38,194 nt of DNA from a virus: positions 1 to 38,194 of IMG/VR virus record IMGVR_UViG_3300006790_000046, one strand, 5' to 3'. A program made the translations under genes and the position numbers. The notes beneath the pieces are model-generated. The model saw only the letters and a list, made by a program, of their open reading frames with translations, was not told the origin of the DNA and did no database searches. Of the stretch, positions 1,362 through 31,487 are shown piece by piece. Position 1 is the stretch's first letter. Each line of letters begins with the position of its first letter.

Positions 1362-2006
1362 TCAGACACCACGCGCCATCAGGTCGCAGATGACCGAGGA
1401 CGGAACGCCGAAGCTCATCCCGACATAGGAACCGCCCATTCCGACCGGAGCGATGCGGGCGCCAACGAAGATGGCGATGACGCGGTTCTTGGCGTCGTAG
1501 ACCGGGCCACCGGAAATGCCAGGGCCACCCGAGATGTCCATGACGACGACCGACTTCCACGGCCCCATGGAGCGCGTCTTGCCTGATAGCCAGCCCCGGA
1601 ACGAGATGAACTCGACACCGAGCGGGCTGCCGCGCGCAACGAGGCTCGTCCCCTCGGGAATGTCGCCACAGGCAAGCGGAGAAAAGGACAGGCGGCTGGT
1701 GCGCTCGATACGCACGAGGGCCACGTCATAGACCGTATTGACCCAGAGCACTTCGCCCTTGCGGGTGATGCCTCGATCGTCCACAATCTTCGCCGTGGTT
1801 TCCTTGCCGATGACATGGGCGGCGGTGAGAATGTAGCCCCGCCCGATGTGGACGCCGGAACCTTGGCCCATCTGCATCGTTACACGCACGACAGGGCCGG
1901 CCTGCGTCAATGGGACGTCGATGGTCTTGTTCACCGCCACATAGGCAGCGAACGCGGCAAATAGGACGAGGCCGCACAGCATCGCCATGGCGCGCATGTT
2001 TTTCAT
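1362..2006 (-). CDS. Membrane-anchored trypsin-like serine protease
   Basis: A 214-residue chymotrypsin-fold protease of the HtrA/trypsin-like type without PDZ domains. A hydrophobic N-terminal segment (about residues 5-25) looks like a signal anchor that would place the catalytic domain in the periplasm. The catalytic triad is visible in order: His64 in TAAHV, Asp94 in YDVAL and Ser165 in GISGGP. The start at 2006 has a good RBS (AAGGAAAG). It lies between the metallophosphoesterase and a string of small lysis-type membrane genes, so a role in lysis timing, envelope processing or superinfection is possible but is inference. A protease at this locus is unusual for a podovirus-like phage. Proteolytic family assignment is confident, substrate unknown. 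Confidence 0.85.
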   Translation of the reverse strand: MKNMRAMAMLCGLVLFAAFAAYVAVNKTIDVPLTQAGPVVRVTMQMGQGSGVHIGRGYILTAAHVIGKETTAKIVDDRGITRKGEVLWVNTVYDVALVRIERTSRLSFSPLACGDIPEGTSLVARGSPLGVEFISFRGWLSGKTRSMGPWKSVVVMDISGGPGISGGPVYDAKNRVIAIFVGARIAPVGMGGSYVGMSFGVPSSVICDLMARGV

Positions 2007-2940: not shown

Positions 2941-3530
2941 CAGCGTTCCTTTCCGAACAGCTTGAGGATTGCGGCGATGATTGAGGCCCAGAAACCGCCA
3001 CGCGGGGCTGCTGGAGCGGGTTTCGGGGTTGGACGGGCTGGCGTGTCCACGCCGTAGCCTTCGGCCTTCAGGAGGGCGTCGTAGCGCTTGGCGATGTCGG
3101 CAATCTCGGCCGCCTTGTCCTTGCCGTTGATGATGCGGCGCGCGTTGACGAAATCGGACTTCTGAAGCGTCATGTAGTCGGACAGCTTCTTGCCGGTGAA
3201 CCAGCCGTCCCGAGAGCCGACAACGAGGATTTCCGCCGCATACTTCGGCTCAAGCAGCTTCTTCGGGTTGTTGACGAAATCGACGCCCAACTCGCGGGTG
3301 GCGCGCTTGTAGTTCTCCAGCCAGGTTAGCTGGGCGTAGCCCATCCCGACGTAGGGGTAGTATTTCTTCGACCGCAGATACTTTTCGCCGCCATACTCGC
3401 GAACCGGCTTCATGGTTCGGGCGGTTTCCCACGCGGTTGTAGCCAAAACATATGCGGCTTGGTTTCTTAGAAGGCCATGCTTCTTGCAGGCGTCAATAAT
3501 CAGCCGAGTGTCGCCAATCTCTAGGTTCAA
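2940..3530 (-). CDS. Endolysin, GH19-like, with C-terminal hydrophobic tail and substituted 5' end
   Basis: A 196-residue peptidoglycan hydrolase. The core (about 8-160) contains a helix-rich glycoside hydrolase 19/lysozyme-like domain with the candidate catalytic Glu35 in TTAWETA and the GMGYAQLTW segment. A proline-rich linker (about 163-178) leads to a hydrophobic, basic tail (GGFWASIIAAILKLFGKER) that may hold the enzyme at the membrane. The start is TTG at 3530, with AGGAG eight bases upstream. The reading frame remains open further upstream, but homology begins exactly at this TTG. Codons 1-31 duplicate, in a different codon choice, the older start now stranded at 4021-4140 beyond the HNH gene. 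The first 31 codons are richer in A/T third positions than the rest of the gene. Confidence 0.8.
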   Translation of the reverse strand: MNLEIGDTRLIIDACKKHGLLRNQAAYVLATTAWETARTMKPVREYGGEKYLRSKKYYPYVGMGYAQLTWLENYKRATRELGVDFVNNPKKLLEPKYAAEILVVGSRDGWFTGKKLSDYMTLQKSDFVNARRIINGKDKAAEIADIAKRYDALLKAEGYGVDTPARPTPKPAPAAPRGGFWASIIAAILKLFGKER

Positions 3531-3580
3531 AAATCCGTCTCCTATTGATGCTGTCGCCCAACTCTGATAAGCATCTTCGG

Positions 3581-4236: not shown

Positions 4237-5412
4237 ATGAAGAAGCTCGCAGCGGTGTTCGCCACCGTTATCGCCATTGTTGCTCTCGCGGGCTTCGCGA
4301 AACCTCAAATCATCAATGCCGGCGACTTTCTGGTTCGCCAGCCGCTTCTCAGCATCCGCGCCGAAATGGCAGCGATTACATCCGAGGTTTCGACCCTTCG
4401 AGCCGAGATGGCGGTTGCATTGGCCCCACCTCCGCCACCCGCCCCTATGCAAGTGCAAGAGGTTGCCGAACCGGCCGTGAGCGATGGGTGGGAACTGGTC
4501 ACTGATGACGCCCCATTCCGCCCCCGCGATGGGTCTTTCGTCGCGTCCTTCAAGGGCTACCTTTGGCTTGGCAATGGCTGGCCGGGTTCTTCCGACAACA
4601 TGCCGACTTCAATCTGGCGTTCCCGCGACGGCAAGGATTGGGAGCGTGTCGTTGACAATGCCCCGTGGAAGGGCCGGCACATCGGCAACTTTGTCGTCCT
4701 CAATGACCGCATGTACATGTACGGCGGCGACAACATGACCGACGTCTGGTCATCCGCCGATGGGATTAACTGGCAGCTCGAAATAGCAGAGGCACCGTGG
4801 GGCAAGCGCTATAACCCCTACATGGGCGCGTTCAACGGCAAGCTCTGGCTGATGGGCGGGCAGAACGAACACTGGACCGGCGCCTATAATGATGTCTGGT
4901 CTTCTGTGGATGGCAAGACGTGGGTGCGCGAGGTTGAGAACGCGCCGTGGCCGCGTCGTAGCCTAGTCTCCGGGTTCGCGGTTCACGACGGGCACATGTG
5001 GGTTATGGGCGGCGGAAGGAAGATACCCGACCCGCGCTGCAATGGATGCGGCCAGACCATCTATGACCTGAACGATGTCTGGAAATCCGCAAACGGCGTC
5101 GATTGGGAACTCGTCATTCCCCGCGCTGAATGGGCACCCCGAACGCATATGAGTGTGGTCGGCTACGACGGCAATCTTATCGTGACCGATGGCTCTGTCG
5201 GTACGCAGGCGGGCATGTCGAGCGAAGCATGGTTCTCGAAAGACGGTATCGAGTGGCACCCTATCGGCGGCATCCCTGACCAGAAGTTCAGCCCCCGCCA
5301 TGCATCAACGCTGGTTGAGCACGACGGGACGCTGTTTATGGTGACGGGCTATCTTCGCAACGATGTCTGGAAGCTGAACCCGGAAGCTCTTACCGTGCCT
5401 CCAACGCAGTGA
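4237..5412 (+). CDS. Secreted/anchored kelch-type beta-propeller protein
   Basis: A 391-residue protein with an N-terminal hydrophobic signal or anchor (1-22), a short coiled coil (about 40-60), a proline run (APPPPPAP, 63-70) and then a repeat domain. Five repeats carry a recurring 'DGxxWxxxxxxAPW' element (DGKDWERVVDNAPW, DGINWQLEIAEAPW, DGKTWVREVENAPW, NGVDWELVIPRAEW, DGIEWHPIG) alternating with kelch-like 'GYLWLGNG', 'RMYMYGGD', 'KLWLMGGQ', 'HMWVMGGG' strands, indicating a beta-propeller. It stands on the plus strand between lysis genes and the tail fibre, both minus, and its 3' end overlaps the tail fibre 3' end by 23 bp. This suggests an independently expressed accessory (moron-like) gene; an envelope or surface-binding role is inference. 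Confidence 0.7.
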   Translation: MKKLAAVFATVIAIVALAGFAKPQIINAGDFLVRQPLLSIRAEMAAITSEVSTLRAEMAVALAPPPPPAPMQVQEVAEPAVSDGWELVTDDAPFRPRDGSFVASFKGYLWLGNGWPGSSDNMPTSIWRSRDGKDWERVVDNAPWKGRHIGNFVVLNDRMYMYGGDNMTDVWSSADGINWQLEIAEAPWGKRYNPYMGAFNGKLWLMGGQNEHWTGAYNDVWSSVDGKTWVREVENAPWPRRSLVSGFAVHDGHMWVMGGGRKIPDPRCNGCGQTIYDLNDVWKSANGVDWELVIPRAEWAPRTHMSVVGYDGNLIVTDGSVGTQAGMSSEAWFSKDGIEWHPIGGIPDQKFSPRHASTLVEHDGTLFMVTGYLRNDVWKLNPEALTVPPTQ

Positions 5413-8436: not shown

Positions 8437-11062
8437 ACCAGCCCGGAAGGCCGGGGAACGCCTGCCGATCGACAAAGCTTTCCTGCCCGTAATCCGAACG
8501 GCGACGCGACTCTTGCCGGCTGAGATAGCCGGGGCTTGCCGCCTCGCGCAGCGAATTGAGAAACAAGTAATCCAGTGCCGGACGGGCATAAAACAGGTTC
8601 GCCCAAGGCGTGTTTTGCAGCCCGTAGGATAGTGCTGACGCGGCCGTCGCATCGCCATCGCGAAGCTTCAGGACGAGTTCCAATCCGTCCAGCGTCGTGC
8701 CGATGGTCGGACCGATCACCGTTTCCGCCAACCCGCCGCCAAAGCGGTTCGTCTGCGCGAACAAGAAGTCGCCATAGATGCCGAATGCACCGCCCTGCAC
8801 CATGGCCGCGCCCCAAGTCTTCGGGTCAGACGGATCGCGCGGCGGCCAGTATCCGCGCGCCATGTCCTTCAACGTCATCGACGCGTATCCCGCCATCGTC
8901 ATGCCGGCAACCAGCGCGCCGATATGGCCGGTCTTCTCCAAATAGGAAGCGTCTTTCCGATGCCCGAACAAGGCGCGCCCAAGCACCCGTTGCGTGAACG
9001 AAAACGGGAAGCCCTTGAACTGGCCGATGAACCGGATCGCCTCGCCGGCCACCGTGCCGGGTCGCAAGCCCAGCGTCATGGTGCGGCGGGTGCGGGCATC
9101 GACCTCAACCATGCCGTAGCTCGTCTCATCGGCCACGAACCGAAGCACGGACAATTCCAGATCGCGACGGCCATCTTCCATAATCGCCGCGCGCTTTTCT
9201 TCAAAATCGGTTTCGCGCTTGGCTCGCGTCGCATCCGACTTGGCCTCGTCCAGCTTGCTCGCCTTGCGCGCCAGTGCGATGCGCTCGCGCACCAGTGGCT
9301 CGATCGCATCGTCCGGCAATTCCCTGATCCGGTCCGGCGTGACATAGGCGGTGTCATTGACCTCCCGGAACTGCGCCTTGCGGATTGCGTCCCATTTCGT
9401 CGCGTCGATACCGTGCAGGCCCAGCACATGCCGGTAATTCGCCGGCAGCGCGCCATAGTCCGACTTAGCCCGCATTCCCATTTCCGCAGCGATGACGCGC
9501 CCCGCCGTTGCGCGATGTACGTCCGTCCACCACGACAGGCCATTCCAGCGGAAAAACTTCTCCTGAAGCCCTGCCATGCGCCCGACAGGGCCGTCTACAG
9601 CGGCGGCCGGGGCAACGATATGGCCGACCAGCCCGTCAAATCCCTCGCCCAGGATGAACGAGATTTCCGCGACCTCACCCTTGGGCCGCCCGCGTCGAAG
9701 TCCGTCAAGCTGTGCCGTCAATCCTTTGAAATACCCGCCGCCGCGAAACATCGAAGCCGCTGCCGCCGTCAGATTGTCGGACACGGATGACAAGACCGCC
9801 CCGCCCAGCTTCGCCATGGACTGCCATGCGCGAATGTCCGCTCCGATCTTTGCCGCCGTGACGCTGACCGGGCGCGATGACATGCCGGTTGCGATATCGA
9901 GCGCCTGCCGCAAGGCCCCGGCGTCCGTCTCAAGACCGGCCTGGCGCTTGATCTTTTCCTGGGGCGACAGTTTCGCGTCGTCACGAATGCGGCGCTTGAT
10001 GCCATCCACCAGCGATCCGAACATCAATTCCGGGTTCGGGCCGAGCGCTTCCATGTTGGCCGCTACGCGCGCCGCTCGGCGCAAATGTGCGACCATGCCG
10101 GAAACTGTATTGCCAAAGCCGAACTCGCTGCGATAGGCAAGCGCGGCTTCCGGGTCGCGGAAATGCAGCACCCGGCTCTTGCCGAGCGATCGGGCCATGT
10201 TCGCCGGGTTGATACGCTGGCCCTTTTCCTTCGGTGTCGTGCGGTTCGGCATTCCGGTGATGATCGTGTCGTAAACATCGCCCAGGATCGATACGACCTC
10301 GCTTTCGTCCGCCGCATCCGGGAACGTCCGCTCCATGTCCAGCTTCGGCATGACCGACGCGATCCAGTTGTCCTTGCCGGCCGCGATCATCCTGATGTCG
10401 TCGTGCGTCTGAGCGCCGGCCCAGCCGTCGAGCTTTCCGATCGATGCCCCGAGCTTGTTCAGGTCCGTGCGGCTCATTTCAGCATAGGACGCGAAAATCT
10501 TCGCCACGTCCTGCGCATCGCGATTGCCGGTAATCCCGGGCCTGCCGCCTTCCTTCAGTTCGCTCATCTCGCGCATGATGTCGGCGTCGAGTCGGGGATC
10601 GCGGATCGCATGAACGAGATGTGGCTTGGTCGCCTGCAATTCGCTGAACAGTCCGCCGAGATAACGCGCCTCATAGGCAAGGTTGAGCGCGGCGACCGAA
10701 TTGCGGCCGCCCTCCACTCCGCGCTGTGTGCCTTCCAAAACAGCCAGAAGCGCCTTCTTTGGCGTCATGCCGTCCCGCATGAAGCCGTCAACGGCCTGAT
10801 CCAGCCGATCCCGCACCAAAATGTTCAGCGCGGCGTGGCGGCGCTGCATGGCGGCGGCAATCTTGGTACGCTCGGCTTCACGCTCGGCAAAGTCGCGCAG
10901 GCGCTCGCCCATGCCGTCGATCTTGCCTTCGGCTTGAAGCTTCTGCTTGTAATCAGACACGCGCTGGAATGCGGCGTTGATTTCCTCGCGGTTGAGACGC
11001 CCCTTGGATGCGGTATTGGCGGCGTTGAAGCAATCGGCATCAGGCGTGTATTTACGGCTCAT
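8429..11062 (-). CDS. Large internal virion/ejection protein (877 aa)
   Basis: An 877-residue, mostly helical protein at the end of the structural operon. The N-terminal third is rich in charged helices (REEINAAFQRVSDYKQKLQA); the C-terminal half contains hydrophobic stretches (IGALVAGMTMAGYASMTL) and ends in SFVDRQAFPGLPGWFR. Size, position between the other internal proteins and the tail fibre, and the hydrophobic patches fit an ejection protein of the T7 gp15/gp16 functional class that leaves the capsid with the DNA and helps span the envelope. No enzymatic motif recognised. The start ATG at 11062 is ten bases below the upstream stop. Confidence 0.65.
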   Translation of the reverse strand: MSRKYTPDADCFNAANTASKGRLNREEINAAFQRVSDYKQKLQAEGKIDGMGERLRDFAEREAERTKIAAAMQRRHAALNILVRDRLDQAVDGFMRDGMTPKKALLAVLEGTQRGVEGGRNSVAALNLAYEARYLGGLFSELQATKPHLVHAIRDPRLDADIMREMSELKEGGRPGITGNRDAQDVAKIFASYAEMSRTDLNKLGASIGKLDGWAGAQTHDDIRMIAAGKDNWIASVMPKLDMERTFPDAADESEVVSILGDVYDTIITGMPNRTTPKEKGQRINPANMARSLGKSRVLHFRDPEAALAYRSEFGFGNTVSGMVAHLRRAARVAANMEALGPNPELMFGSLVDGIKRRIRDDAKLSPQEKIKRQAGLETDAGALRQALDIATGMSSRPVSVTAAKIGADIRAWQSMAKLGGAVLSSVSDNLTAAAASMFRGGGYFKGLTAQLDGLRRGRPKGEVAEISFILGEGFDGLVGHIVAPAAAVDGPVGRMAGLQEKFFRWNGLSWWTDVHRATAGRVIAAEMGMRAKSDYGALPANYRHVLGLHGIDATKWDAIRKAQFREVNDTAYVTPDRIRELPDDAIEPLVRERIALARKASKLDEAKSDATRAKRETDFEEKRAAIMEDGRRDLELSVLRFVADETSYGMVEVDARTRRTMTLGLRPGTVAGEAIRFIGQFKGFPFSFTQRVLGRALFGHRKDASYLEKTGHIGALVAGMTMAGYASMTLKDMARGYWPPRDPSDPKTWGAAMVQGGAFGIYGDFLFAQTNRFGGGLAETVIGPTIGTTLDGLELVLKLRDGDATAASALSYGLQNTPWANLFYARPALDYLFLNSLREAASPGYLSRQESRRRSDYGQESFVDRQAFPGLPGWFR

Positions 11063-26159: not shown

Positions 26160-26635
26160 CAGTGAACGGTCGCCTCACGAACGGCACGCATCGCAGCCTC
26201 GGGACCGATTTGGTTGATGATGCGGTCGCACTCGTCGTCCGTCAGAAGACCGCCATTATTGGCCTTGGCCCATACACGCCGCGTCACCTTGCGCAGCATG
26301 GCCAAGTCCTTCGGTTCCAGATCGAGCAGGAAGGACGACCCATTCCCGTCAAGACTGCGAAGGGCAACCACCGTCGCCTCCGCTAACATCAGACGCACGT
26401 CCGACCCTGAAACGTGGTCCGGCACCTGCGGCACACGATCCTCGCCCGGGCGCTTGATGGTGAACACAATCGGCCCGACCAGAACATCCTTGTCCGACGC
26501 CGCCTTGTTGAGCGAGTTCGGGCAGTCGACATCCTGCCAGCGCTTCACATGCTCTTCGCTCTCGGTTCCGGTCAGCCAGATCGCGCATTCGAGAACGTCG
26601 CCTACTTTGACATCAGCCACGGAAAGCTCCTGCAT
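26159..26635 (-). CDS. Hypothetical protein (158 aa)
   Basis: A 158-residue acidic protein. A '[20 protein letters not shown]' start and central 'VGPIVFTIKRPGEDRVPQVP' are followed by a helical C-terminus. The start lies 23 bp inside the 3' end of the TerL gene. It is probably co-expressed with the terminase; no family recognised. The C-terminal 'LLTDDECDRIINQIGPEA' could form a helix pair for protein contacts. Confidence 0.65.
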   Translation of the reverse strand: MQELSVADVKVGDVLECAIWLTGTESEEHVKRWQDVDCPNSLNKAASDKDVLVGPIVFTIKRPGEDRVPQVPDHVSGSDVRLMLAEATVVALRSLDGNGSSFLLDLEPKDLAMLRKVTRRVWAKANNGGLLTDDECDRIINQIGPEAAMRAVREATVH

Positions 26636-28001
26636 GGGGGTGATAGCCGCCGGCGTTCTGGTGGACGACCGCCTTGCCCGAATTGGACTTCTTCGTCATC
26701 TGCGGGAAGAGCTGGGTCAAAGCCCATACCAGAGCATCGACATGGTCCGGGGATGCATCCCCAGCCATCCCATTCGGGCCGAACATCACCATTTCATCTT
26801 CAAGCGCCGGGAAGGAACCGACATGGCTCACCCGGCCCTGCTCATAGAGCGCGGCAATCGGCTCGGCGCGAACCCATTTGCCTCGGCTTGCCGTAACCTC
26901 GCGGAACGGCACCGAAGGCCGCACCGAACGGATCGTCGCCTCGATCATATCGCCGCCATTGTTCGTCTCACCGACAATGCAATCCGCGTCATACCTGTCG
27001 AAGCACGCTATGGCCCGGCGCGCCCAGCCGTTCGGGCTTTCCCGGCATGTCGCATCATCGAGGACATAACCCCGGCCATCTTCGCCGACCCCGGCAACGA
27101 CGATACCTGTTGCAGCACCATCCTCGGCCATTTCGTTCTTCTTGGCGGCGGGGTCGATGGCGACAACAACGCGGCGCAGCGTCGGGATTTCCCCTGCCTT
27201 GCGCCGGTGCTGGTCGATGCCGGCACGCGTCCACAGAGCGTCCGGCACATCGTCCAAGATTTCGGCGGACAATTCCTGCCGGCCAAGTCGCGTCCCTTCA
27301 TATTTCGCAACGATCTGCGTCAGAAAGGACGGCGCCAGATTGGCCGCGTTTTCAAACGTCGATCCTTTCGTCGGCACCGTAGTCGGCGAGGCCAGTATCT
27401 CTTTCAGGACAGGGATCGGACGCGGCGTTGTCGTGACGACCTGCCTGGGGTCCTCGCCAAGACGAAGCCCGAATTGAAGCTGATCCCATGTCTCTCGCGC
27501 ATAGCGCCATTTCGCCAATTCGTCGCACAAGGCCGCGTCATGTTGCGGCCCGCGCAACTGGTCCGGCTCGACCGCGTTGTAGAGCGTGCCGACCGCGCCG
27601 TTCGGCCAAGCCAGCCGACGCTTCGATGGCTCGTACTGCGGCCGGAACTCAGGCGGGTGAACAGCAAGAATGCCGCTCTCCCCCTCAACCAGAACATCAC
27701 GCGCGTCTGCCGCCGTTTCGGCGACAATGGCGATGCGACGATGGCTCCCTGCCGCCAATGGTGTCGGGCCGCAGGCGATCGAACGGACCCACTCCGCGCC
27801 GGCCCGGGTCTTGCCGAACCCACGGCCCGCGAGCACCAGCCATGTCAGCCATTGGCCTTCTGGCGGCAATTGATTTGGACGCGCCCAGAACCGCCAGTCC
27901 CACAGAAGCGACGCCGCCTGGGTCTCTGAGAGAGACGCTAGAGCCTCATCCCTTTCGTGCTCGGGCAGCAAGGCCAGCGATGCGGCCAGCGATAAGTTCA
28001 C
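26613..28001 (-). CDS. Terminase large subunit
   Basis: A 462-residue DNA-packaging motor ATPase/nuclease. Walker A is AGRGFGKT (58-65), Walker B is AALCDE (156-161), a coupling motif 'TTTPRPIP' follows (about 190-197), and the RNase H-like nuclease domain begins with VVVAIDPA (Asp283) and continues through '[11 protein letters not shown]' and '[11 protein letters not shown]'. The start is GTG at 28001 with a GAGGTG RBS. It overlaps the TerS gene by 56 bp. Packaging strategy (pac or cos) cannot be read from this sequence. Confidence 0.95.
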
Positions 28002-28470
28002 GTGCGCTCACCTCTACCTTAACCGGATCGCCGTCCTTGCCGGTCAGTTCCGATCTGTCGGCAAGGCCCAGATCGCGGGCAATAATGTTGGCGTTCAGCA
28101 GGTCGGCGGCCGCGCCGGAGAACTTCTGGTCGCGGATGACTTCCTCCGCCCGCGTGACGACTGGGGTAAAATCGGGACGCTTGCCGTACTCAACCCACGT
28201 CTTGCGGTCGATATCGAGGAAGATGCACAGCCCCGAAATGGTCATGGCGCGCATCTTGGCGATAGTCGCCCTTACGATACCGTCCTTGCCGTTGAAGACC
28301 TTTTCCTCGCGAAGCGGGTTGGCCTCGGCCCAATCGAAATACTCGACACAGGCGGTCCACAGATCGTCAGGCGCTGCGAAGATGGGATTGCGGCCATGCG
28401 ACGAGCGCGCTTCCCAGAACCTGTTACCGGGGAGAAACTGCCCCGTGCCTTCGTCGCGTCCCTCACCCAT
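27946..28470 (-). CDS. Terminase small subunit
   Basis: A 174-residue DNA-recognition subunit of the phage packaging enzyme. ATG at 28470 gives [20 protein letters not shown], the typical start of this gp3-like family; a TTG four codons upstream is less likely. '[27 protein letters not shown]' and the DNA-binding '[22 protein letters not shown]' (HTH-like) are visible, with a helical C-terminal half that would oligomerise. It lies directly upstream of and overlaps TerL, and overlaps the preceding small ORF by 8 bp. Confidence 0.85.
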
Positions 28471-28690
28471 GACGATCCCCAAACACGATCTTCTCTTTGG
28501 CTCGTTCCATCAAGACGAGTGTCTCGCCACCGTTGGCATTACCAGCGATGTAGATCCCGCCGTCCACATATTCTGCGATGATTGCGAGCGTGACGAACTC
28601 AGCACCCTTTGCATCTTCGAGGATTTCGTCTGCGTCGAACCGATAGCCGTCACCTACGATTTCGGGCTTGAGTTTGTGGACTTCTGCCAT
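28463..28690 (-). CDS. Hypothetical protein, first gene of the packaging operon (75 aa)
   Basis: A 75-residue protein from ATG 28690 ([20 protein letters not shown]) with a purine-rich RBS (GGGGAGAGAG). It has an alpha/beta pattern with '[21 protein letters not shown]' and '[16 protein letters not shown]'. It is the promoter-proximal gene of the leftward packaging operon, starting beside the palindromic control region, and overlaps TerS by 8 bp. Similar small proteins occur in rhizobial phages; function unknown. Confidence 0.7.
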
Positions 28691-28754
28691 CTCTCTCCCC
28701 GCGTGTCTGATGCGCGCTGGATTGCGAGCGCGTCGGTATCTGCACGGATAATTC

Positions 28755-28801
28755 GTCAGATAATCTGACATTAGCGCTTGCATAATGTCCGATGGTCTGA
28801 C
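28755..28801. promoter_or_regulatory. Pair of 15-bp palindromic operators
   Basis: GTCAGATAATCTGAC (28755-28769) is a perfect palindrome with a central A. GTCCGATGGTCTGAC (28787-28801) is a related imperfect copy. Their centres are 32 bp apart, about three turns of DNA. A further single half-site GTCTGAT lies at 28705-28711. They sit in the 142-bp gap between divergent genes, exactly where a phage switch repressor would bind. The cognate repressor is not identified; the HTH protein at 29056 is one candidate. Confidence 0.7.
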
Positions 28802-28806
28802 ATATT
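28778..28806 (+). promoter_or_regulatory. Candidate rightward promoter overlapped by operator
   Basis: TTGCAT (28778-28783) and CATATT (28801-28806) are separated by 17 bp and fit a sigma-70-type promoter moderately (3/6 and 4/6 matches). The imperfect operator palindrome fills the spacer, so binding there would block polymerase. It would drive the three plus-strand genes from 28833. Confidence 0.5.
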
Positions 28807-28832
28807 GGTCTCAACAACAAAGGAGACCGGAC

Positions 28833-29033
28833 ATGAACGCCACCGACCTGAACACTATTCGCAACGCTTTCGGAAACCTGACCACCATGGACCCTGACGG
28901 CCCCGTCTATAAGAAGCTGTGCGAATTGCTCGACCGTTGCGATGATGAGGCTATCGTCGCCGCAAAAGACGCTGGCATCAAGTTCGTCTCGTCCTTGGCA
29001 CTTAACCGATGCATCCGCAGGGGCCTCGTCTGA
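28833..29033 (+). CDS. Small hypothetical protein, first gene of the rightward control operon (66 aa)
   Basis: A 66-residue protein from ATG 28833 (MNATDLNTIRNAFGNLTTMD) with a strong AAGGAG RBS. Mostly helical (YKKLCELLDRCDDEAIVAAKD) and acidic, ending in a basic tail (LNRCIRRGLV). It is the first gene after the operator/promoter and may be a small regulator or an anti-repressor type protein, but no family is recognised. Confidence 0.7.
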   Translation: MNATDLNTIRNAFGNLTTMDPDGPVYKKLCELLDRCDDEAIVAAKDAGIKFVSSLALNRCIRRGLV

Positions 29034-29055
29034 GGCTCCCACAAGGAGAAGCTGA

Positions 29056-29271
29056 ATGACCCCCGAACAATTCGCTCGCTGCCTCGCTGACCTTAAGTCG
29101 GCGGGGCGCATCCGCGACGGACACGGTGCGCACACAGACCTTGCCAACGCTCTCGGCGTGTCCCGGGACACTATTTACCGCTTCGAGCTGGACGGCACCA
29201 AATCAATCGCCACTGACCTTGCCCTCGCCGGCCTCTTGGCTGGCCTTCCTCCTTATGGAGTTGCCAAATGA
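29056..29271 (+). CDS. Small HTH DNA-binding protein (Cro-like candidate)
   Basis: A 71-residue protein with a clear helix-turn-helix (HTDLANALGVSRDTIYRFEL, about 26-45) followed by 'SIATDLALAGLLAGLPPYG'. RBS AAGGAG. It is the second gene of the operon controlled by the palindromic operators. Proteins of this size and layout act as Cro-like or excisionase-like phage regulators, and it is the only obvious transcription-factor-like product beside the operators, so it is the prime candidate for their ligand. This is inference; the family is not otherwise established. Confidence 0.7.
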   Translation: MTPEQFARCLADLKSAGRIRDGHGAHTDLANALGVSRDTIYRFELDGTKSIATDLALAGLLAGLPPYGVAK

Positions 29272-29498
29272 ACGACAGTGATCAGGAGAAGTTTGCGCGA
29301 CTAGTGGCGTTGTCCGCCATCCAGACCGCGCAGATAAAGGCAAACCCGCTTCCATTCTTAAATGAGGTGGCAGCGGAAAATCACCGCCTTCGCAAATGCA
29401 TCCAAGATGCGGCCATGGTCCTTAGTGGGGCTGACAATTTTGCGGCCTTATGTAGCAAAAGCACCAACCGCTTTTCGCTGCATTTGAGCCGGTCCTAA
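29268..29498 (+). CDS. Small hypothetical protein (76 aa)
   Basis: A 76-residue helical protein (MNDSDQEKFARLVALSAIQT) whose ATG overlaps the HTH gene stop as ATGA, so it is translated together with it. 'ENHRLRKCIQDAAMVLSGAD' suggests a short coiled coil. The gene ends inside a hairpin (29490-29509) that is likely the operon terminator. No family recognised. Confidence 0.6.
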   Translation: MNDSDQEKFARLVALSAIQTAQIKANPLPFLNEVAAENHRLRKCIQDAAMVLSGADNFAALCSKSTNRFSLHLSRS

Positions 29499-29509
29499 AG
29501 AAAGGACCG
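29490..29509. terminator. Hairpin between convergent operons
   Basis: CGGTCC-TAAAGAAA-GGACCG is a perfect 6-bp inverted repeat that contains the stop codon of the rightward operon in its loop. It lies between the rightward operon and the leftward gene ending at 29532. The T-tract (ATTTAT) is weak, so it may be a rho-assisted or bidirectional stop. Confidence 0.5.
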
Positions 29510-29531
29510 ATTTATGTCGCGCTATCTGAAA

Positions 29532-30536
29532 CTAGCTTTCCTCGCGGTCGTAGTTGTATTCCTCACCGCCCCATCGGCTGTAGTTGCCGCCCCATGCCGC
29601 GCTTGGTCTGAAGGCAAAGCCGAGCTTTCGCCTCTTGCCGAGAGGGTCAAGGTAAATGATCTCGCCAATGATTGGCGGGACGTTATGCCGGAGCGCCTTT
29701 CTCTCCTGCATTTCCATTCCGTTGAGCATGATAACCCCGAGGCGGGCGTAGTTGTGGCCGTTCAAACTAGGGGCCCCGGGGATGTCGGGGAGCCGTCTCT
29801 GATCGTGTGTCGGGGGGTTGGGATAGAAGGTATCTCCCCTTGTAAGGACCTCAAAAACTTCGGCGCCACCCCAGCCTCTGATTCCATGCAAACCGACTTC
29901 GCACCTTCGTATAGTCGCGGGCATGTCGCTAAAATTGGTGACTTCAATGGTGGCGAGAACCATCACCATCTTTACGGCGGGGTCGCTCAACCCTTGAACG
30001 TCGCGTTGCTCCAAGTAGGGGCCGCTGATCTTTACCAGCAGCCAGGGCTTGAACCCGGCTTCAAATTGTCTCGCGGCGATCTTGTTGGCGGCATGAGCGG
30101 CTTGAGCGCCGACCATAGCAGCGGCAGTGCCCTTAGCCGCTTCGCGGACCGCACTTTGGGTCGCGACCAGCGTTTCGCGAATGTAAAGAATGCCGATTAC
30201 CGTCGCCACCAAGGCAGCGAGGGCTATTACAGCCATCAGCAGGGCATAGACCGCCATATCTTCTTGGGCGGCAAGATCGCGTTCGGCACGCTTCTGCTCG
30301 TTTGTGGCCTGTATTATCTCATAAACACATTCCGCCTCAGCGGGCGGGTCCATCCCGATACAGGTGCTTTGTATGTCGGATTGTGCGCGCTCGGAATAGC
30401 TGGCGGACCTATAATCATCGTACTTAGCTTGCTGGGATTTTGAAGCGGCAACGAAGGCGAATACCGTAAATAACGAAAGCCCTACCGCTACGATTATCCA
30501 AGGTGCAAAGTCTGAGAATCGATAGCTTTTAGACAT
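29532..30536 (-). CDS. Two-TM membrane protein (334 aa), accessory
   Basis: A 334-residue membrane protein. The first TM helix is at about 11-30 (WIIVAVGLSLFTVFAFVAAS) and the second at about 95-118 (YALLMAVIALAALVATVIGI), followed by the coiled 'YIRETLVATQSAVREAAKGTAAAM' and a large soluble beta-rich C-terminal domain (about 160-334). Similar proteins with TM pair plus 'A..A...Q...' helix and a soluble domain are common and unnamed in alphaproteobacteria. It overlaps the upstream chimeric ORF by 43 bp. The antisense strand carries a nearly equally long open frame, judged a shadow. Confidence 0.65.
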   Translation of the reverse strand: MSKSYRFSDFAPWIIVAVGLSLFTVFAFVAASKSQQAKYDDYRSASYSERAQSDIQSTCIGMDPPAEAECVYEIIQATNEQKRAERDLAAQEDMAVYALLMAVIALAALVATVIGILYIRETLVATQSAVREAAKGTAAAMVGAQAAHAANKIAARQFEAGFKPWLLVKISGPYLEQRDVQGLSDPAVKMVMVLATIEVTNFSDMPATIRRCEVGLHGIRGWGGAEVFEVLTRGDTFYPNPPTHDQRRLPDIPGAPSLNGHNYARLGVIMLNGMEMQERKALRHNVPPIIGEIIYLDPLGKRRKLGFAFRPSAAWGGNYSRWGGEEYNYDREES

Positions 30537-30841
30537 TGAAGGAAGAACGCCGCCGTGAATTTGCCCCGAGAGAGCTTATTACGGATATTCACTTCCTTCT
30601 CGTCAACGCCTATTGCCGTTAGCCGCTCGACAAGCTGCGCGTAGGTGACGCCCTTCCGCTTCAACTGAAAGCGGTCGGCCGGTTGGCACCCGTACTGAGT
30701 ACCCCTACCATGCTGTTGAGAAGTCGTTTTTGCTACTACCGATATCCCCTCATGGGAGCCAAGAACGATGAAAAGTTTCTCCCCCGTCTCCCCATCATGA
30801 AAGACAAAATCCTCATCGAAAAATACCGACCCCGGGTTCAT
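30494..30841 (-). CDS. Chimeric ORF: PemK-like N-terminus joined to DUF6471-like C-terminus
   Basis: A 115-residue protein. Residues 1-58 (MNPGSVFFDEDFVFHDGETG, then EKLFIVLG, VVAKTTS, YGCQPADRF) resemble the start of a small PemK/MazF-like beta-barrel toxin family that I remember near Panacea proteins. Residues 59-115 (LKRKGVTYAQLVERLTAIGV, NKLSRGKFTAAFFLQCLKAI) resemble a DUF6471 domain. Both halves look abbreviated: the toxin-like part lacks its normal second half, and DUF6471 lacks its usual 'W..L...L' start. The frame is continuous, so it reads as a fusion, not a frameshift. It overlaps the Panacea gene by 29 bp. The toxin partner may be inactive. Confidence 0.6.
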   Translation of the reverse strand: MNPGSVFFDEDFVFHDGETGEKLFIVLGSHEGISVVAKTTSQQHGRGTQYGCQPADRFQLKRKGVTYAQLVERLTAIGVDEKEVNIRNKLSRGKFTAAFFLQCLKAIDSQTLHLG

Positions 30842-31391
30842 TCGGAATGCTCTCTAGCAATTCGCGACGCTCATTAGCGACTCGCATTATAGTTTCTCGC
30901 TCGTCTGTTCTAGCCGCAAGATCGTATGGAATTTCTTCCTGCTTCCTGCCCTCTTTGTTGTAAACCTGATCCCAAGGCAAATTCTCCAGGTGCGTCGCCT
31001 CAACCATCTCGTCAGCCGTTGCGTTTCGGTATTCTTTTGCCAACGAAGCTAAGAGGGCCAGTTCACGTTTAGAGAAAAATTTTGCAGAAAACTCCCGCCT
31101 GGGACGGACAACATACATCGTTCCGTTCTTGATCTCGGTTTCGTTGATCTCAACCGCTGATGCCAAGTCAGCTGCCGGTGCAGGCACTTCGTTGTGCAGA
31201 GCGACGGGCACAGGTCCCATCGGCCAAGCATAATACCTTAGGCCGGTTACGCTGCGTCCTGTGGCTTTAAAATGTTCAAAATCGAGAAAATACAGAAGCT
31301 TGAATAGCTTCGTTTTACCCAATTTCCGAGTGTTGTGCGCGAAATAAGAAATCGCCTCGACCAACTTTTCTCGGTCATGGTTTATCAACAT
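30813..31391 (-). CDS. Panacea/SocA-like antitoxin candidate
   Basis: A 192-residue protein from ATG 31391 (MLINHDREKLVEAISYFAHN), chosen over the start eight codons upstream because it follows an AAGGAC RBS and fits the domain. 'LGKTKLFKLLYFLDFEHFKATGRSVTGLRYYAWPMGPVP' is the signature of the Panacea (SocA-like) domain, and 'LALLASLAKEYRNATADEMVEATH' belongs to its second half. Panacea proteins act as antitoxins that neutralise varied toxin partners. Here the overlapping downstream ORF is the expected partner. Whether the module is active is unknown because that ORF looks chimeric. Confidence 0.8.
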   Translation of the reverse strand: MLINHDREKLVEAISYFAHNTRKLGKTKLFKLLYFLDFEHFKATGRSVTGLRYYAWPMGPVPVALHNEVPAPAADLASAVEINETEIKNGTMYVVRPRREFSAKFFSKRELALLASLAKEYRNATADEMVEATHLENLPWDQVYNKEGRKQEEIPYDLAARTDERETIMRVANERRELLESIPNEPGVGIFR

Positions 31392-31487
31392 TCCGGTTGT
31401 CCTTCCCCCAAGCACCCGGCTCGAATCAGCCTAGCACGCTGCCACGAGTACTGGAAACATTGCCTTAAGAGCGGAAAATAGGGCGGC

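Follow-up and report, generated by a model that had tools for sequence, protein, structure and literature searches.

The window, by which we mean the whole 38,194-base virus contig analysed here, has no terminal repeat and carries at positions 28691-28832 a gap of 142 bp. On one side of the gap a packaging operon is read leftward; on the other, three small open reading frames (ORFs) form a cassette read rightward, the second of them encoding a helix-turn-helix (HTH) protein. Two similar palindromes, which we refer to as O1 and O2, stand in this gap with their centres 32 bp apart. The features of the locus are as follows.

26613-28001, minus strand: terminase large subunit, phrog_979
27946-28482, minus strand: terminase small subunit, phrog_606, whose relatives include P22-type gp3
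28463-28690, minus strand: first gene of the leftward packaging operon, 75 aa, PHROG match to phrog_11040 (unknown function)
28755-28769, no strand: O1, perfect 15-bp palindrome GTCAGATAATCTGAC with an odd centre, from sequence scan and shuffles
28778-28806, plus strand: likely cassette promoter, TTGCAT (28778-28783), 17 bp, CATATT (28801-28806), with TG before the -10 element
28787-28801, no strand: O2, imperfect 15-bp palindrome GTCCGATGGTCTGAC, 5 of 7 arm pairs, in the promoter spacer
28820-28826, plus strand: likely ribosome-binding site of ORF1, AAGGAGA, read from the sequence
28833-29033, plus strand: ORF1, 66 aa
29056-29271, plus strand: HTH protein, 71 aa, likely cognate regulator
29268-29498, plus strand: ORF3, 76 aa
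29490-29509, plus strand: terminator-like hairpin closing the cassette

An earlier note on this DNA had described one perfect and one imperfect palindrome at this spacing in the gap, one of them filling a 17-bp promoter spacer, and a check of the sequence bears this out, O2 covering 14 of the 17 spacer bases together with the first base of the -10 element. The window holds nine perfect palindromes of the 7+1+7 form, so that a lone one such as O1 is ordinary; the pair is not. When palindrome quality and similarity were combined into a single pair score, O1 and O2 reached 24, a value met in none of 5000 shuffles that preserved the dinucleotides of the 142-bp gap (maximum 22), and the tile that contains them ranks first of the 536 in the window, the next scoring 21. 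Matches to O1 with at most three mismatches number six over both strands (three places), against a mean of 0.51 expected, and no shuffle contained six. We hold it very probable that O1 and O2 are genuine operators, of a type that is in itself ordinary. The palindrome has a third and weaker copy, GTCAGATTGTCGGAC, at 9768-9782 within a leftward late ORF, and this copy is also present in the longer contig described below.

The phage is temperate, and the cassette, which runs on the strand opposite to the neighbouring leftward lytic genes, separates those of the early region from the late (packaging) ones. For ORF1 and ORF3, comparison with PHROG and Pfam at E 0.1 gave no family. The HTH protein gave HTH and repressor matches that are weak and below the Pfam cut-offs, its AlphaFold model is all-helical and of low confidence (pLDDT 57.6), and comparison with solved structures returned one match, at E 0.91. 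The terminator-like hairpin is supported by its place and not by numbers, the count in the region being at chance level (one found, 1.3 expected).

Several other genes of the window may be recorded here. A DUF6471 gene overlaps a gene with a SocA/Panacea domain (30494-31415, minus strand) in the region of the early/late boundary, and the two form a possible toxin-antitoxin pair. The gene at 33362-34039 (minus strand) encodes a protein that has the helix-turn-helix domain known from the C terminus of DnaA. A 214-aa ORF at 1362-2006 (minus strand), towards the distal end of the late genes, looks by eye like a trypsin-type serine protease.

Operator and putative regulator in a second phage

The window is found whole and at 100% identity, at 45592-83785, in a longer contig, IMGVR_UViG_3300025093_000002 (G001, 92088 bases). 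Relatives of the HTH protein in viral contigs came to four loci, namely G001 itself, two loci of one phage (G002, which is L003, and L004/L023) and one distant relative (46%). As the L004/L023 contig is 100% identical to G002 across 5224 bp, the two are the same phage, and the independent phages that carry the module number only two. GTCNGAYNRTCNGAC has no exact copy in the contig of the distant relative (L005, G003). Among the genome_contigs 38 stretches fitted the search pattern and none was a true relative of the HTH protein, and the phages and plasmids collections yielded no match.

G002 (43.6 kb) has the same layout, with a leftward large terminase, a first cassette ORF unrelated to ORF1 of the window and an HTH protein that is 84% identical in amino-acid sequence and invariant over residues 9-39. 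It is otherwise a different phage. Its large terminase has phrog_38 as best family, against phrog_979 in the window, and it possesses cI and cro genes of its own, separate from the module. A blastn comparison of G001 with G002 (E <= 1e-4) gave only three matches. One, of 64 bp at 79.7%, covers the promoter and O2; another, of 205 bp at 75.6%, falls in the HTH gene; and the last is a run of 57 bp within what looks by eye like an SSB gene. The other tblastn matches of G002 ORFs (at least 50 aa) to G001 have identities of at most 51%.

O2 of G002, GTCCGATCATCTGAC, occupies the same spacer position as O2 of the window, within TTGCCA-17-CATATT, which agrees with the consensus at 9 of 12 positions and again has TG before the -10 element. 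This homologue supports the promoter of the window, which taken alone would be a weak call, since TTGCAT/CATATT has 7 of 12 consensus matches and a standard promoter scan of 28500-29700 found none at its threshold on either strand. Of O1, the centre and right arm (ATAATCTGAC) are kept in G002 and the left arm is changed, with GTAAAAT for GTCAGAT. The distance from O1 to O2 is 42 bp in G002, exactly 10 bp above the 32 bp of the window; at 10.5 bp per turn these distances correspond to four and three turns, so that the two sites would share one face of the helix in both phages.

Because ORF1 has been replaced between the operator and the HTH gene, the two appear to have been conserved together beyond mere adjacency, and this is the main argument by which operator and HTH gene seem to work together. 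The earlier note had found the sites to be without an obvious repressor gene; the conserved HTH protein of the cassette is instead their likely cognate regulator.

We consider it probable that O1 and O2 serve as operators for a self-contained ORF1-HTH-ORF3 cassette that is autorepressed by its HTH protein. In the window and in G002 alike an operator overlaps the predicted promoter of the operon that encodes this protein. A dimer of the HTH protein would bind O2 within the -35/-10 spacer and would thereby shut off its own promoter, and a second dimer would bind O1 on the same face of the DNA, three helical turns upstream (four in G002), where it might strengthen the repression or, in the manner of an activator at about -51, tune it. 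Whereas the sites, their place and pairing and the fact that they are conserved along with the HTH gene are read directly, we infer that the HTH protein is the binder, that it acts as a cooperative dimer, which way the effect goes and where transcription starts. The weaknesses of this reading are the weak promoter of the window, the loss of the left arm of O1 in G002 and the number of independent phages, to which may be added an HTH protein that falls below the Pfam cut-offs and is poorly modelled, and the presence of other HTH-like matches in both contigs.

Possible packaging control and other candidate owners of the sites

A second possibility is that the cassette is one half of a two-way switch, in which the HTH protein at O1/O2 would regulate itself and would also repress or time a leftward packaging promoter overlapping O1. 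Control of packaging by the sites is possible, and we hold the two-way arrangement to be rather unlikely. In G002 one weak leftward match, CTGACA-16-TATTTT, has its -10 element inside O1, and the cassette again stands head-to-head with the terminase operon although the terminase families differ, an arrangement seen in two cases only. The G+C content of the gap is also low, only 30 of the 536 tiles being equal or lower. However, packaging control is unsupported within the window, where the scan of 28500-29700 gave no leftward promoter match near O1, and conservation with G002 ends inside O1, the sequence to its left having diverged. The match in G002 carries little weight, since 1.2 kb of that phage contains four promoter matches where 0.6 are expected.

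The small terminases speak against the two-way arrangement as well. That of the window is a relative of P22-type gp3, and among its relatives (the best 80 of 335, with flanks of up to 3 kb and often shorter) an O1/O2-type pair was found near none of the 79 other than G001. A site with at most two mismatches occurs at 11 of these 80 loci, one being G001 itself (L027, with both sites); the other ten share an identical, single, unpaired site with two mismatches about 1.9 kb downstream of the end of the small terminase. Perfect palindromes of 14-15 bp upstream of 28 of the 80 relatives (up to 1500 bp each, 5 of the 28 being shorter) included none with the sequence of O1. ORF layouts were listed for 14 of the 80. 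A literature search for a repressor or operator at a terminase found nothing, the strict word combinations used making this weak evidence of absence in print.

It is improbable, in our estimation, that some other regulator, from the host or a further phage gene, owns the sites and that the HTH protein only travels with them. This would fit the further HTH-like matches found in G001 and G002 besides cI, cro and the cassette gene (for example at G001 49553-49678, below the cut-off), and also a locus in an AT-richer phage contig, L121, where a perfect 15-mer, TGCAGATAATCTGAC, and an imperfect partner, GTCAGATTATCTGAC, lie 31 bp apart at 2307-2352, in a gap that has a different HTH-like gene beside it and a cI/cro-like pair not far off. 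This locus emerged from a search with a paired-site pattern for which, by a rough estimate of our own, about one chance match would be expected; its sites match better than the pattern demanded, and it is a possible, unproven third case of paired sites. Against a different owner stand the joint conservation of HTH gene and operator, the other repeated sites of the cI region, with no GTCNGAYNRTCNGAC form in G001 past the window and around cI (83786-92088), and the result of a search of the genome_contigs with a strict form of site plus promoter, which gave two stretches, one from a Prolixibacteraceae MAG and one from Exiguobacterium.

The promoter block itself gave one match in the phages collection, at E 3. 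The idea that the site is a widespread viral motif was rejected: TGTCAGATNATCTGACA occurs in 17 viral-contig stretches, and in 15 of the 17 it falls inside a mechanically called ORF of at least 60 aa. A further copy, that of L129, belongs to a hairpin with T's after it. A nearby partner with at most two mismatches is seen in L121 alone, the partner in L136 having four.

Less credible than a different owner of the sites would be a toxin-antitoxin-type cassette, with the HTH protein as autorepressing antitoxin and ORF1 or ORF3 as the toxin. The locus is a small operon with an HTH protein, and type II toxin-antitoxin cassettes repress themselves at a promoter/operator, according to PMC7730913; yet ORF1 and ORF3 belong to no recognised family at the threshold given above and the counterpart of ORF1 in G002 is unrelated.

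The immunity region beyond the end of the fragment

The earlier note had read the palindromes as a lysis-lysogeny or early-late switch placed at the terminase operon, in a window in which no CI-type repressor is seen. That last observation holds for the fragment and fails for the phage, since G001 continues past the right end of the window and there encodes a CI-type repressor (HTH_3 and Peptidase_S24) at 86478-87134 on the plus strand, 2.7 kb beyond that end, with an adjoining divergent Cro-like HTH gene at 86163-86405 on the minus strand, 2.4 kb beyond it. The 'missing repressor' is an effect of where the fragment ends. The sequence ATACCGATTTGGTAT is found at G001 86404 and, across cI, at 87624, with an imperfect copy at 86439, so that sites of the form ATACC-N5-GGTAT flank cI on both sides in what is evidently an immunity region at 86.2-87.6 kb. 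This form is absent from the window, in which a looser pattern of the CI site gave one imperfect match, in the late region (G001 67611). O1 and O2 correspond to G001 74346 and 74378, about 12 kb from cI. The immunity region thus lies elsewhere and uses different sites, the form GTCNGAYNRTCNGAC being absent from G001 83786-92088.

Two similar operators beside an HTH gene, in a 38-kb fragment where no CI gene is seen, do resemble an immunity region. To the extent that sequence can decide the matter, however, an immunity switch at the terminase is contradicted by the complete cI/cro with its own repeated sites some 12 kb away and by the separate cI/cro of G002, and we rejected it as extremely improbable. 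What survives of the earlier reading is the operator pair itself, by its look and its adjoining HTH gene.

G001 carries two related phages, with integrase matches at 3061-3540 and 44446-44862, and has an exact terminal repeat of 99 bp (bases 1-99 and 91990-92088); it is accordingly either circular, with the two phages joined in one ring, or an assembly into which both were merged. The second phage has an HTH and S24 gene of its own at 35.5-36.2 kb, and the S24 genes of the two are similarly far from the early stretch that they share (2.9 against 3.0 kb). At the DnaA-domain gene mentioned above the second phage has a 551-bp stretch of 93% identity.

Known systems and the meaning of the cassette

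Lambda-type Cro/CI systems combine a small HTH protein, short palindromic operators overlapping a promoter and near-integral helical spacing. The cassette shares these traits, but the immunity region of its phage is separate and has different repeated sites. Controller (C) proteins of restriction-modification systems are HTH autoregulators of about 70-80 aa with paired sites at their own promoter, and the HTH protein resembles them in size and paired sites; the cassette, however, is without a restriction or methylase gene, and the C-protein site differs in sequence from O1/O2.

Phage accessory (moron) loci are characterised in PMC7067206 by a promoter of their own and an antisense position, and the cassette is like such loci in its likely own promoter, in being antisense to the lytic genes and in its distribution. 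The second phage of G001, whose early stretches are 75-100% identical to those of the window phage, has the sites only unpaired and with three mismatches and has no convincing counterpart of the HTH gene (an 18-residue match at E 0.005). With its antisense position, the terminator-like hairpin and the lack of sites and HTH gene in this close relative, the cassette looks like a moron-type accessory locus, differing from such loci in that it carries a putative autoregulator and has a G+C content only slightly below that of the fragment (0.569 vs 0.613). A 391-aa ORF at 4237-5412 (plus strand), with a signal-like start and kelch-like repeats by eye, is antisense to the late genes and possibly another accessory gene.

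A more far-reaching proposal, which we regard as doubtful, is that the operator and regulator form a mobile module, acquired by phages of differing terminase at the head of the packaging operon, which would act there as a second, CI-independent late switch, its helical register kept by the 10-bp change in spacing.

For the analysis of viral fragments, the locus demonstrates that a contig end can produce a false 'switch without repressor'. For the phages themselves, it offers a small and clean example of an operator and a regulator that seem to have stayed associated from one phage to another although the intervening gene was exchanged. Should the module gate packaging as well, temperate phages would have in it a second decision point.
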